64,000 nt of DNA from Comamonas denitrificans (GTDB lineage: Bacteria; Pseudomonadota; Gammaproteobacteria; Burkholderiales; Burkholderiaceae_C). The stretch's first letter is position 1, and each line of letters starts with the position of its first letter. Position numbers and translations under genes: made by a program. The notes beneath the pieces were generated by a model, which saw only the letters and a list, made by a program, of their open reading frames with translations, did no database searches and had not been told where the DNA came from. Location of the stretch: NCBI RefSeq assembly GCF_017368815.1, contig NZ_JAFNME010000001.1:1-64000 (forward strand), read 5' to 3'. Positions 3,952 through 64,000 of the stretch are shown one piece after another.

Positions 3952-4959
3952 ATGAATCATTTGCCCCCCTCGGGCGCTTCGCAGCAGCCCGGTCAAGACT
4001 TATGGCAGCAACCTGGCGCACAGGCCGCTGGCAATACCGCCTGGGAGCGCGAGGTGCTCGAGCGCCTGGTGCTGGCCACCGTGAATGAGCAGCGGGCTGC
4101 GCGGCGCTGGAGGATTTTTTGGCGCCTGCTCTGGATGGGCTTGTTTGGCGCAGCGATTTGGTTCTTTGGCAAAGAAGGGGCCACCACCACCGTCTCGGGC
4201 CCGCACACGGCGGTGGTGGAGATCAAGGGCGAAATCGCCAGCGGTGCCGATGCCAGTGCCGAATTTGTCAATGCAGCCATGCGCTCGGCGTTGGAAGATT
4301 CCGGCTCCAAGGCGTTGGTCTTGTTGATTAACTCGCCGGGCGGCAGCCCCGTGCAGGCCGGCATGATCAACGATGAAATCCTGCGGTTAAAAGCCTTGCA
4401 CCAAAAACCGGTGTACGCCGTGGTGGAAGAAACCTGTGCCTCGGCGGCCTACTACATTGCGGCTGCGGCCGATGAGATTTACGTGGACAAGGCCAGCCTG
4501 GTTGGCAGCATTGGCGTGTTGCTGGATGGCTTTGGCTTTACCGGCACCATGGAAAAGCTGGGCGTGGAGCGCCGCTTGCTCACCGCAGGATCGAACAAAG
4601 GCATGCTCGACCCGTTTAGCCCCATGTCGCCAGAGCAGCGCGAGCATGCGCAGGAAATGCTGGACACCATCCACCAGCAGTTCATCACCGTGGTGCAGCA
4701 AGGGCGGGGCAAGCGCCTGCATGCAACGGCCGACACCTTTAGCGGCCTGTTCTGGACGGGCGAACAGGCCGTGGCCATGGGCCTGGCCGATCAACTGGGG
4801 TCACTGGACTCTGTGGCCCGCGACATTGTGCAGGCCGAAGACATCATCGACTACACCCGCCGCGACAACGTGGCCGAACGCCTGGCCAAGCGCTTTGGTG
4901 CGGCCTTGGGCGAGGGGGTGGTGCAGGCGGGAAAAAGCTGGGGCGTGAGTCTGCGCTAA
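3952..4959 (+). CDS. sppA: S49-family membrane peptidase (signal peptide peptidase SppA type)
   Basis: Inner-membrane serine protease that degrades cleaved signal peptides or other membrane fragments. It has 335 residues: a cytoplasmic N-terminal tail, one transmembrane segment (about 51-73) and a periplasmic S49 domain. The Ser/Lys dyad is S164 in CASAAYYIA and K216 in GSNKGMLDPF; the 52-residue spacing equals that of Bacillus SppA (S147/K199). The short length matches the 36K single-domain type rather than the 67K E. coli enzyme. A -10-like TACACT lies at 3904-3909. The gene ends against a palindromic repeat that can terminate transcription. Confidence 0.9.
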   Translation: MNHLPPSGASQQPGQDLWQQPGAQAAGNTAWEREVLERLVLATVNEQRAARRWRIFWRLLWMGLFGAAIWFFGKEGATTTVSGPHTAVVEIKGEIASGADASAEFVNAAMRSALEDSGSKALVLLINSPGGSPVQAGMINDEILRLKALHQKPVYAVVEETCASAAYYIAAAADEIYVDKASLVGSIGVLLDGFGFTGTMEKLGVERRLLTAGSNKGMLDPFSPMSPEQREHAQEMLDTIHQQFITVVQQGRGKRLHATADTFSGLFWTGEQAVAMGLADQLGSLDSVARDIVQAEDIIDYTRRDNVAERLAKRFGAALGEGVVQAGKSWGVSLR

Positions 4960-5052
4960 AAAAGAGAGCTGTTTGCGCTTGTAAATAGTAAGTTTCAATG
5001 CTTTTTGATATTGAAATCAACTAAATTCAAGCGTAAACAGCTCTTTTTATAT
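4959..5052 (+). repeat. Family A palindromic repeat, convergent-gene terminator
   Basis: AGAGCTGTTTGCGCTTG (4965-4981) pairs with CAAGCGTAAACAGCTCT (5028-5044), 16 of 17 positions. An inner stem is TTTCAAT (4993-4999) with ATTGAAA (5010-5016). It is flanked by AAAAAA on the left and TTTTT on the right, so it can act as a terminator for both converging genes, sppA and the RsmI-like gene. Confidence 0.75.
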
Positions 5053-5068
5053 TGTCTGCCTGGCCAGC

Positions 5069-5854
5069 TTACTGGCCAAAAGCAAAAACAGTGGGCGTGT
5101 GCTTGGCCGGTGCCCAGTCTTTGGTGCGCCAATCGGCCACGCTGCGCGATTGGATATCGGCCTCTGCCAGGGTCAGGCCGCTGGCCACGGCCAAGCGGGT
5201 AGTGGTTTGCAAGTGCGCCAGCAGCGCCTGCCACAGGGCGGGATTGCGGTAGGGCGTTTCAATAAAAATTTGCGCTTGCCCGGTTTTGAGGCTCAGGCTC
5301 TCAAGCTGGCGGATGCGCTGGCTGCGCTCGCCTGCGTCTTGCGGCAAATAGCCTTGAAAGGCAAAGCTTTGGCCATTCAAACCGCTGGTGGCCAACGTCA
5401 GCAGCAACGACACCGGCCCCACCAAGGGCACCACCTGCGCTCCCATGTCGTGCGCGGCCCGCACCACCGAGCTGCCCGGGTCGGCCACCGCCGGCATCCC
5501 GGCCTCACTGAGCAAACCGACATCGTTCCCGGCCAGCAGCGGCGCCAGCAGGGTTTGCGCCCCCCAGCCTTGGGCTGCGCTGCCGGCGTGGTCGCCTTTT
5601 TTATGCACATGGCGCGGCAGCTCCTGAATGGTGTGGCTTTGCAGCGGTGCGGACAAGGGAATCAGGGCATCAATGCGCTTTAAATAAGCGCGGCAGCTTT
5701 TGGCGTTTTCGCACACCCAATGGGTCAGCTGGGCGGCCCGCTGCAAAGTGCCGCTGGGCAGCACCGCCTCCAGCGGGGCCTGGCTGGCGCAGCCAAAGTC
5801 CAGCGGGGCCGGCACTAAAAACAAGCGGCCCAGGGGTGGTTTGGGCGTGCTCAT
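5069..5854 (-). CDS. RsmI-like SAM-dependent methyltransferase (tetrapyrrole methylase fold)
   Basis: 261 residues of the TP-methylase superfamily. True RsmI 2'-O-methylates C1402 of 16S rRNA. This protein keeps the later SAM-site blocks (LLSEAGMPAVADPGSSVVRAAH and PLVGPVSLLLTLATSGLNG regions) and the IFIETPYRN block. The amino-terminal third differs strongly from RsmI, where the usual VATPIGNL becomes VPAPLDFG. It is therefore probably the divergent paralogue carried by many Burkholderiales, and its target is unknown. Its ATG overlaps the maf stop by 4 bases, so the two are translationally coupled. Confidence 0.8.
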   Translation of the reverse strand: MSTPKPPLGRLFLVPAPLDFGCASQAPLEAVLPSGTLQRAAQLTHWVCENAKSCRAYLKRIDALIPLSAPLQSHTIQELPRHVHKKGDHAGSAAQGWGAQTLLAPLLAGNDVGLLSEAGMPAVADPGSSVVRAAHDMGAQVVPLVGPVSLLLTLATSGLNGQSFAFQGYLPQDAGERSQRIRQLESLSLKTGQAQIFIETPYRNPALWQALLAHLQTTTRLAVASGLTLAEADIQSRSVADWRTKDWAPAKHTPTVFAFGQ

Positions 5855-62132: not shown

Positions 62133-63265
62133 GCCGCAGTCTCCTTGGCCGTGGGCGCGTAGTGCAGCACGCTGCGGATGCTTTTGCCTTCGTGCATCAG
62201 ATCAAAAGCGTGGTTGATGTCTTCCAGCCCCATCGTGTGGGTGACAAAGGGGGCCAGCTGGATGCGCTCGGCCATGGCATCTTCCACCATGCCGGGCAGT
62301 TCGCTGCGGCCCTTGACCCCGCCAAAAGCACTGCCCAGCCAGCGCCGGCCGGTGACCAGTTGGAAGGGGCGTGTAGAAATTTCTTGCCCTGCACCGGCCA
62401 CGCCGATGATGATGCTTTGCCCCCAGCCCCGGTGGGCGCACTCCAGCGCAGCGCGCATGACATTGACGTTGCCAATGCACTCAAAGCTGTGGTCCACGCC
62501 CCAGCCGGTCATTTCCACAATCACCTCTTGAATGGGGCGTTGGTGGTCTTTGGGATTGACGCAGTCGGTCGCGCCAAAGGTGCGGGCCAGCTCAAATTTG
62601 CTGGGGTTGGTGTCGATGGCGATGATGCGCCCTGCGCCCGCCAGCTTGGCCCCTTGTAGCACCGCCAAACCGATGCCGCCCAAGCCAAACACGGCCACGC
62701 TGTCGCCCGCTTGCACCTTGGCGGTGTGTTTGACCGCGCCCAGTCCGGTGGTGACCCCGCAGCCCAGCAGGCAGACGTGTTCAGGGTTGGCGTTGGGGTT
62801 GATTTTGGCCAGCGAGACTTCGGCCACCACGGTGTATTCGCTGAACGTCGAGCAGCCCATGTAGTGGTAAATGGGCTGGCCCTGGTAGGAAAAGCGCGTG
62901 GTGCCATCGGGCATCAGGCCCTTGCCCTGGGTGGCCCGCACGGCCACGCACAGATTGGTTTTGCCGCTTTTACAGAACAGGCATTCGCCGCATTCGGCGG
63001 TGTACAGCGGGATCACGTGGTCGCCCGGCTGCACGCTGGTCACGCCTTCGCCCACCTCGACGACGATGCCCGCGCCTTCGTGGCCGAGCACGGCGGGAAA
63101 GACCCCTTCGGGGTCATCGCCGCTTAAGGTAAAGGCATCGGTGTGACACACGCCGGTGTGCGTGATTTTGACGAGCACTTCGCCCTTTTTCGGCGGAGCG
63201 ACGTCGATTTCGACGATTTGTAGTGGCTCTCCAGCCTTAAAGGCCACGGCGGCACGGGATTTCAT
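62129..63265 (-). CDS. adhC: S-(hydroxymethyl)glutathione dehydrogenase / class III alcohol dehydrogenase
   Basis: NAD-dependent oxidation of S-hydroxymethylglutathione, the first step of formaldehyde detoxification; also called frmA. It has 378 residues from ATG 63265. Catalytic zinc ligands are in [16 protein letters not shown] and the cysteine of [11 protein letters not shown]; the structural zinc site is [15 protein letters not shown]. The NAD motif is [14 protein letters not shown]. It is operonic with fghA; no frmR repressor is seen upstream. Confidence 0.96.
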
Positions 63266-63296
63266 AACAGCTCCTTGGGCGGTAAACAAGCGGTGA

Positions 63297-64000
63297 CTAT
63301 ATCGCCCGGCACGCCGCCAGAGCGCGGGCGACCAAGGTGGCCTGCGCCTGGGGCGCATCGCAGGCAATCGTTTGCCGCTGGGGCATGCTGCGCAGCCAGG
63401 TGATTTGGCGCTTGGCCAGCTGGCGCGTGGCGGCAATGCCTTTTTCGCGCAGGCTGGGCATGTCCACGGATTGGTGGTGGGCGGCTGCGCTGTCCAGCGC
63501 CTCCCAGGCTTGGCGGTAGCCCACGCAGCGCATGCTGGGCAAATCCAGGTGCAAATCGCCGCGCTGGCGCAGCTGCTGCATCTCCTGCAAAAAGCCCTCA
63601 GCCAGCATGGCATCAAAGCGCTGGGCAATGCGCTCGTGCAGCCAGGTGCGGTTTTCAGGTTCTAAAGAAAAAAAGCCATTTTCGCTGATGGGGCTTGCGG
63701 TTACAGCTCTGGTTTTTGATTTATGAAAAGCCGACAAAGGCTGGCCGGTGCGCTCCCACACTTCCAGGGCCCGCTGGATGCGTTGGCTGTCGTTGGGGGC
63801 CAGGCGGGCGGCGGTGACCGGATCGACCTGGGCCAGCCGGGCGTGCATCGCGGGCCAGCCAATGGCAGCGGCCTCGGCATCCAGGCGCTGGCGCACGGCA
63901 GGATCGGCCGTGGGCAGGTCGTCCAGGCCGTCCATCAGGGCTTTGAAGTAGAGCATGGTGCCGCCCACCAGCAGCGGTATGGCGTGGCGCTGGCGGATGG
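63297..64000 (-). CDS. miaA: tRNA dimethylallyltransferase, C-terminal part (5' end outside window)
   Basis: Adds a dimethylallyl group to A37 of tRNAs reading UNN codons. The visible 234 residues begin in [21 protein letters not shown] and include [16 protein letters not shown], the catalytic-core block [14 protein letters not shown] and [12 protein letters not shown]. The ATP P-loop is upstream of the window edge. Around 63660-63728 an AT-rich insert ([16 protein letters not shown]) looks like a Family A repeat read in frame. Confidence 0.95.
63660..63728 (-). repeat. Probable Family A repeat inside miaA
   Basis: On the minus strand it reads AAACCAGAGCTGTAACCGCA, then AGCCCCATCAGCG and AATGGCTTTTTTTC. 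The order and the mirrored CGC/GCG core resemble Family A. The frame is open through it. Confidence 0.45.

Follow-up and report, generated by a model that had tools for sequence, protein, structure and literature searches.

A family of palindromic repeats recurs throughout the Comamonas denitrificans genome and is anchored at the 3' ends of genes. It came to light in a 64,000-nucleotide stretch of contig NZ_JAFNME010000001.1 (positions 1 to 64,000; hereafter the window). The family is real and is built like REPINs, the inverted doublets formed by repetitive extragenic palindromic (REP) sequences, and it is untagged, that is, free of the REP head motif. Direct observation shows that it is abundant, fixed in size and covarying, that it lies at stop codons and is scarce in divergent gaps, and that Comamonas species share its positions; past mobility and a host function are inferred. 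Searching the window for a 17-mer core with up to 3 mismatches returned 10 matches, compared with a mean of 0.32 and a maximum of 2 in 100 shuffles. The 14-mer AGCTGCTTGCGCTT, allowing one mismatch, occurs 141 times in the whole genome (3,002,881 bases) and its reversed pattern once. A profile trained on copies from this genome was then applied to a 464-kb sample consisting of the window and 20 other stretches of the same genome, where it called 67 copies at our threshold of E ≤ 0.01. The same 464 kb read backwards gave no profile match, even at E ≤ 1. By each of these counts (17-mer, 14-mer, profile) the core is far more frequent than chance would give. Full-length copies have a GC content of 33% compared with 63% for genes, in line with the original prediction that copies are the more AT-rich.

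That prediction, made from the letters of the window, listed about 15 copies, 12 of which are borne out at E ≤ 0.01. All 11 strong places were recovered by the profile, together with one of the four weak places inside genes (58421). The other three genic places (13252, 17270 and 63660) are unsupported at this threshold; 17270 was not recovered and 63660 scores only E 1.8. The proposed density of about one copy per 4 kb was too high, as 12 copies in 64 kb and 67 in 464 kb amount to nearer one per 5-7 kb. The only Rfam match at gathering score in the window is a cobalamin riboswitch, and in four loci the copies give only sub-threshold matches, mostly to microRNA hairpin models. Phages contain no match to the repeat and plasmids no convincing one; weak partial matches in four Borreliella plasmid records were taken as chance.

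The main form of the repeat is a long hairpin of fixed size. It consists of two inverted AGCTGCTTGCGCTT arms with A/T runs outside and a covarying inner stem. With arms placed by best match, 38 of the 67 copies span exactly 76 bp, counted from the first AGCT to the last, and a further 7 span 75 bp, so that the predicted head-to-head arrangement not only holds but is sharper than claimed. The AGC and CGC of each arm are near-invariant in the 38 span-76 copies. Pairing in these copies exceeds that of column shuffles at arm position 5 (24/38 vs 15.2) and at inner positions 29 (25/38 vs 12.8), 31 (24/38 vs 12.7) and 33 (21/38 vs 11.4), values reached by none of 200 shuffles, although kinship among copies can inflate such an excess. 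Several pair types occur at each position and a single inherited change is therefore insufficient as the cause of the covariation. Little or no pairing excess is found at arm position 8, in the stretch between arm and inner stem or in the outer A/T run. Folding of the 38 copies yields a mean of -28.9 kcal/mol and a mean z of -5.2, with z < -2 in 31 of them. Shorter forms are single hairpins with spans of 35-60 (33105, 27030, 9462).

Copies cluster behind stop codons and avoid divergent gaps. Gene contexts are those of a simple gene caller in which single calls can err, for example at 53346, where open reading frames (ORFs) follow the copy on both strands and leave the next gene's orientation uncertain, or at 12951, where an ORF was missed. 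By these calls the 67 copies lie in 46 tandem, 12 convergent and 1 divergent gap, with 7 inside genes and 1 at an edge. Among gaps of at least 40 bp, 45/193 tandem, 12/35 convergent and 1/48 divergent gaps hold a copy. Tandem and convergent gaps combined (57/228) differ from divergent ones (p = 1.3e-4), and convergent do not differ from tandem gaps (p = 0.20). For the distance to the stop codon we considered 70 stop ends, 4 of which had poor arms and were excluded. In 49 of the remaining 66 cases the arm starts -3 to 30 nt from the stop codon and in 30 it starts within -3 to 10 nt; of the other cases, 9 are at a distance of over 30 nt and 8 extend deeper into the gene. Where a tandem gap leaves room to move (15 gaps), 10 copies are found within 30 nt of the upstream stop compared with 2.8 expected. 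TGA is scarce among the 30 closest stops (TAA 21, TAG 6, TGA 3; all 404 called genes: TAA 202, TGA 149, TAG 53), and in 6 cases, fabH among them, TAGCT itself supplies the stop codon with its TAG. Elsewhere in this genome, 4 kb of contig C12 (57817-61856, loci L239-L240) are without called genes, perhaps representing an rRNA operon or a gene-caller fault.

The full form of the repeat is concentrated in Comamonas and patchy outside the genus. This follows from the presence of the 14-mer and of matches to a model, R1, across genomes. The best named relatives in a PNPase search are mostly Comamonas records, in keeping with an assignment to this genus. By hand count, 31 of 37 same-genus genomes, the source genome included, contain the exact 14-mer, as do 4 of 24 genomes from other families of the order, with one copy each; the reversed 14-mer occurs once each in 7 of the 61 genomes. 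At E ≤ 1e-5, R1 matches 12 of 100 genomes of the family, again including the source genome, in a search that used stricter filters and scored the best 43 candidates per genome. R1 searches, this one and another that scored the best 150, count both strands and hence provide no copy numbers.

Within Comamonas the repeat keeps its position between species while its sequence diverges strongly, and the copies are not fully conserved in the manner of ordinary terminators. At the gap between the genes that we label sppA (S49 peptidase) and rsmI (TP_methylase), the source genome and the relatives G005, G012, G024 and G010 carry a doublet. G004 shows a diverged long hairpin (by eye) and G016 a weak profile match of 19 bits. 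In the 11 other relatives compared, inspection by eye shows a hairpin that is short and GC-rich and has a T run, joined in one of them (L136) by a short repeat unit. At this gap the repeat thus occupies the place of the ordinary terminators of more distant relatives. Gap lengths overlap, with 98-165 in the presence and 86-160 in the absence of the repeat. At fabH-fabD a hairpin starts from the fabH stop in six species with differing stem sequence, weakest in G016, and is detected by the profile in three. The copy at 21550 has counterparts in G012 and G024, that at 27030 in G024/L031, L039 and L033, and that at 33105 a diverged hairpin at the same place in L031, L033 and L039; the copy at 49989 corresponds to a 20-bit profile match in G024. 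By hand count, G024 carries the repeat in 7 of 8 gaps that hold a copy in the source genome and in 1 of 31 gaps that do not (p = 4e-6). For G012 and L039, which look like one genome and were counted once, the values are 7/7 and 1/27 (p = 1.5e-6). Presence also varies: at 17954 the 44-bp equivalent in G024 has no copy, yet its surroundings differ too, while the gap at 17088 holds a copy in G012 and G024 and none in the source genome. A 20-kb synteny query added one usable gap.

We favor, with a probability of roughly 0.55, an old and mostly immobile family of untagged REPIN-like repeats at gene 3' ends. Such non-autonomous palindromes, together with their shorter single-hairpin forms, would have been dispersed long ago by a mobilizer now lost or not known, and most copies would now be held in place because their hairpin acts as a 3'-end signal. 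In convergent gaps a copy could serve as a two-way intrinsic terminator, whereas between tandem genes it could terminate partially or form a barrier at the mRNA 3' end. The repeat flanks also supply TAA or TAG stop codons. The copies have the anatomy of intrinsic terminators, namely a stable predicted hairpin followed by a mean of 4.5 T in 8 positions, downstream of a gene. This anatomy and the exchange with GC-rich terminators support a putative role at the 3' end. Complete termination at every copy is unlikely since some copies separate genes that are likely co-transcribed. Full copies of this kind lie between ileS and its neighbor and in a pair that we take, from gene order, to be dnaN-gyrB; another copy lies in a pair taken to be pnp-tpiA. 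Translation in E. coli is influenced by REPs close to stop codons. Decay of REP-containing mRNA is the subject of a review passage. If our reading is correct, a single repeated hairpin serves the genus as its standard gene-end part, and the presence of the repeat or of an ordinary terminator in the same gap of relatives offers a direct test of the host role of REPIN-like repeats. A family without a visible transposase would also allow one to ask whether sets of repeats persist by host selection and not by transposition.

Several observations weigh against this reading. In favor of it, other terminators are rarer in tandem gaps that hold a copy (5/45 vs 46/148, p = 0.007), but the deficit weakens at the strictest threshold (p = 0.052), is not significant in convergent gaps (3/12 vs 11/23) and comes from a comparison in which masking the copy shortens the sequence searched. 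In tandem copies the upstream A run and the downstream U run are equally strong (4.50 vs 4.53 of 8, p = 0.86, n = 32), which disfavors selection for one-way termination alone, and we set that explanation aside. A divergent gap holds one full copy, and seven copies are genic. Same-gap copies of two species mostly show an inner identity of 0.60-0.69 compared with a paralogue mean of 0.64, exceptions being gyrB between the source genome and G012 (0.77) and sppA between G005 and G012 (0.90). Descent is therefore indicated by position and hardly by sequence, possibly because copies changed rapidly where they stand, were converted by one another or reached the same gene ends more than once. The compared gaps, all from distinct species, showed no clean empty site, and recent transposition was set aside on this ground; in the same gaps no target-site duplication was seen.

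Seven copies at E ≤ 0.01 lie inside ORFs, and the 404 called genes contain 9 matches at E ≤ 1 compared with none in five synonymous-codon shuffles. A btuF-like gene of the window holds the copy at 58421 with no insertion or deletion (indel) within it relative to the eight nearest relatives (L252-L259), whereas eleven more distant relatives carry 2-3 further residues there. A photolyase gene with a copy shows no indel relative to a PDB chain, and a carboxylase gene with a weaker match (E 0.07-0.14) is likewise free of indels. The copy-bearing nadE is 2 residues shorter than that of G005, and G012 carries this copy too, at a span of 75. Extra residues are found in truB (4) and in the Csy3 (cas7f) gene (about 4, in the copy or just after it), trmJ has a long variable linker, with the clearest short unit in G024, and the seventh genic copy lies in a cas3-like gene (by eye). 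At least some genic copies do not look like simple insertions because the alignments show unchanged or near-unchanged length. Through them one can study how a conserved gene comes to hold a palindrome at constant length. One conceivable answer, to which we give little weight, is a gene-end module whose spread partly involves no net insertion: it would replace about 50-90 bp at 3' ends and inside ORFs at near-constant length, and template switching or selection would keep it palindromic. Under this replacement scenario, and with the same reservation, copies would take over the place of the terminator and supply stop codons on one or both strands.

Two further features were noted near genic copies. 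The cobalamin riboswitch of the window (55822-56074, RF00174, E 1.9e-11) lies upstream of a long ORF and of the periplasmic-binding-protein gene that holds the copy at 58421. On contig C23 of the source genome (L245-L250), a string family of about 44 copies (TAGGCAGCT, TTCGGCAGT), located in non-coding DNA, resembles a CRISPR array, presumably of type I-F; the Csy3 gene and a cas3-like gene near it both hold copies of the palindromic repeat.

The repeat behaves like a REP family and was found without a partner transposase. As originally described, it is dispersed, palindromic, mostly extragenic and present as singlets and inverted doublets. The predicted lack of a REP transposase in the window extends to the whole genome, in which no match reaches the NF047646 cut-off. 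The only PF01797 match of this genome is assigned to an IS605-type TnpA since an OrfB_IS605 gene lies next to it; an IS605-type element with TnpA and TnpB genes spans positions 1486-3168 of locus L118. A second weak NF047646 match (L180) lacks a Pfam match, looks antisense by eye and was rejected. Thirteen of 15 Comamonas genomes have an NF047646 match at E ≤ 0.001, none of them over the cut-off, and G005 and G012 have none at that value, though R1 finds copies there. Among the ten best loci, eight carry a recognizable Y1 gene, and all eight precede the same downstream gene, which we take to be gltB; these are single RAYT-like (REP-associated tyrosine transposase) genes (L169-L176). The original prediction had proposed looking for a Y1-type (RAYT) gene near a copy, and none appeared, there being no profile match in the eight Comamonas loci. 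Matches to a 15-mer with up to 4 mismatches in some Y1 flanks were taken as chance. No convincing copy adjoins any of 30 RAYT-like loci from other genera (best profile value E 0.0097). A RAYT flanked by two inverted copies was not found in the source genome, the 8 Comamonas loci or the 30 other loci, which derive from draft genomes such that this absence is not final. RAYT-associated REPs consist of a GC-rich palindrome preceded by a GT(A/G)G head (PMC2817692). Copies here show no such head, the arm being AGCTGCTTGCGCTT after an A run, at 33% GC. The inverted doublet at a preferred spacing that forms a predicted hairpin, as in REPINs, is present in the span-76 copies (38/67). Because REP head tag and flanked RAYT are lacking, we call the family REPIN-like and not a proven REP, leaving the earlier REP-like interpretation partly supported.

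A strict RAYT-mobilized REP or REPIN family that a cognate RAYT in the genus is still copying would explain the doublet architecture (PMC3116915) and would fit G016, G034 and G002, each of which combines many exact 14-mers with one RAYT-like Y1 gene. It is nevertheless unlikely given the sub-cut-off NF047646 matches in the 15 Comamonas genomes, their lack at E ≤ 0.001 in G005 and G012, the 8 Comamonas and 30 other Y1 loci without a convincing adjoining copy and the missing GT(A/G)G head. About equally improbable is an origin without any mobility, in which hairpins at gene ends arose where they now stand and came by convergence to a protein-bound sequence (the AGCT-N5-CGCT arm). Near-invariant AGC and CGC beside a covarying inner stem, the overlapping sppA-rsmI gap lengths and some genic copies at unchanged length would all agree with it, whereas the fixed 76-bp span and whole-doublet layout are hard to reach by convergence, and profile ascertainment itself favors conserved arms. 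Fixed length, inverted ends and high copy number would likewise suit a miniature inverted-repeat transposable element (MITE) derived from an insertion sequence whose terminal repeats match, with a DDE or other transposase moving it. Neither target duplication nor empty site was seen in the compared gaps, and we rate this origin slightly below both of these.

Far less credible is that the copies are ordinary intrinsic terminators alike by accident, even though they are hairpins with T runs at 3' ends and at one gap take the place of GC-rich terminators. A common 14-bp arm at a fixed span is not a property of terminators, and the arm sequence here is specific and repeated, at 33% GC, in copies that also lie inside genes and between likely co-transcribed genes. 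Least probable of all is a DNA-uptake sequence (of the DUS/USS type) with inverted pairs doubling as terminators. Inverted gene-end pairs and genic copies do recall Neisseria and Haemophilus, and some k-mers exceed expectation in coding DNA (TTGCGCTT 45 vs 26.5, CTTGCGCTT 15 vs 7.7, GCTTGCGCTT 6 vs 2.8), but others are at or below it (AGCTGCTTG 10 vs 12.1, GCTGCTTGCG 4 vs 7.1) and a fixed 76-bp spacing is not expected. This mixed picture without strong DUS-type enrichment led us to set the idea aside.

Copies of the repeat in the 64-kb window, with profile E values
Form	Position	Strand	Context	E value
Full doublet, span 76	4959..5048		Fills convergent gap sppA (S49 peptidase)-rsmI (TP_methylase)	1.5e-14
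Single-hairpin form	9462..9518	+	fabH-fabD gap; its TAG is the fabH stop codon	3.1e-4
Borderline copy, span 77	13265..13341		Inside ORF 12951-13451	0.41-0.48
Full doublet, span 76	17974..18062		Convergent gap	1.2e-13
Full doublet, span 76	21550..21637		ileS to next minus-strand gene	1.7e-15
Single-hairpin form	27030..27099	+	purN-like to rsmB-like gap	5.1e-6
Left half of copy	28382..28416	+	Convergent gap; full doublet in relative L039	8.7e-3
Copy, span 76	30747..30836		rpsO-pnp gap; overlaps conserved pnp-leader hairpin	2.0e-10
Short hairpin, span 35	33105..33150		pnp-tpiA gap	8.4e-6
Full doublet, span 76	49989..50069		Convergent gap, immediately behind ordinary GC-rich terminator-like hairpin	5.3e-13
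Full doublet, span 76	53346..53432		End of LysR gene	4.9e-9
Copy inside gene	58421..58501		Periplasmic-binding-protein gene (58067-58933)	1.2e-6
Full doublet, span 76	60387..60474		Divergent gap, sole such case in the 464-kb sample	3.1e-8

The conserved hairpin of the rpsO-pnp gap (30617-30852), which the copy at 30747 overlaps, has the arms GTGTCATTCCA and GGAATGGCATCG; they are present in 77 of 80 rows (the window and 79 named loci). Within the window this hairpin matches no Rfam model at gathering score, and it may be a leader structure of pnp not yet described.

The claim that the family lacks a formal description was nearly right. Our literature searches listed no paper describing it, the nearest being PMC5217627 and PMC3110155, and the former, a 2017 survey, lists likely parts of it as potential novel motifs. 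One of these, GCTTAT(N)5AAGCG of Acidovorax ebreus, has 114 copies, 107 of them intergenic, with 44 in convergent, 59 in co-oriented and 4 in divergent gaps (PMC5217627). This motif pair matches the hairpin core of the single unit described here and shows the same gap bias. It occurs 4 times in our 464 kb and 4 times in 80 named loci, compared with 0 for the reversed pattern in both. Another, ATAGCT(N)22CAAAAG of Polaromonas naphthalenivorans (125 copies; PMC5217627), has only the ATAGCT head in common with the repeat, and the link is weak because the exact pair is found once in 464 kb and is absent from the 80 loci. As listed in the survey, these motifs are statistical only, without the doublets, covariation or comparison between relatives analyzed here.

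Comparison with known systems places the family closest to REPINs. Like REPINs of Pseudomonas and E. coli, it combines inverted units and a spacer at preferred distances into a long hairpin, includes singlets, and resembles them in its hundreds of copies and long persistence in a lineage (PMC3116915, PMC8049555). It differs from REPINs in being AT-rich and anchored at stop codons, without a GT(A/G)G head or a flanked RAYT in the loci searched. Untagged REP-like families have been noted in other bacteria (PMC3733652). The Beta-proteobacterial repeat element (BRE) of Bordetella, Polaromonas and Delftia, which also occurs in Comamonadaceae, is similar in its length of about 90 bp and in being mostly intergenic and sometimes genic (PMC3110155). 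Compared by description only, BRE differs in being tandem and 69% GC in Bordetella (PMC3110155), as opposed to 33% GC for the repeat studied here. Bidirectional intrinsic terminators likewise consist of an A run, a hairpin and a T run at 3' ends and in convergent gaps, whereas the Comamonas repeat is a family of fixed length with near-invariant arm bases and a long AT-rich hairpin instead of a short GC-rich one.

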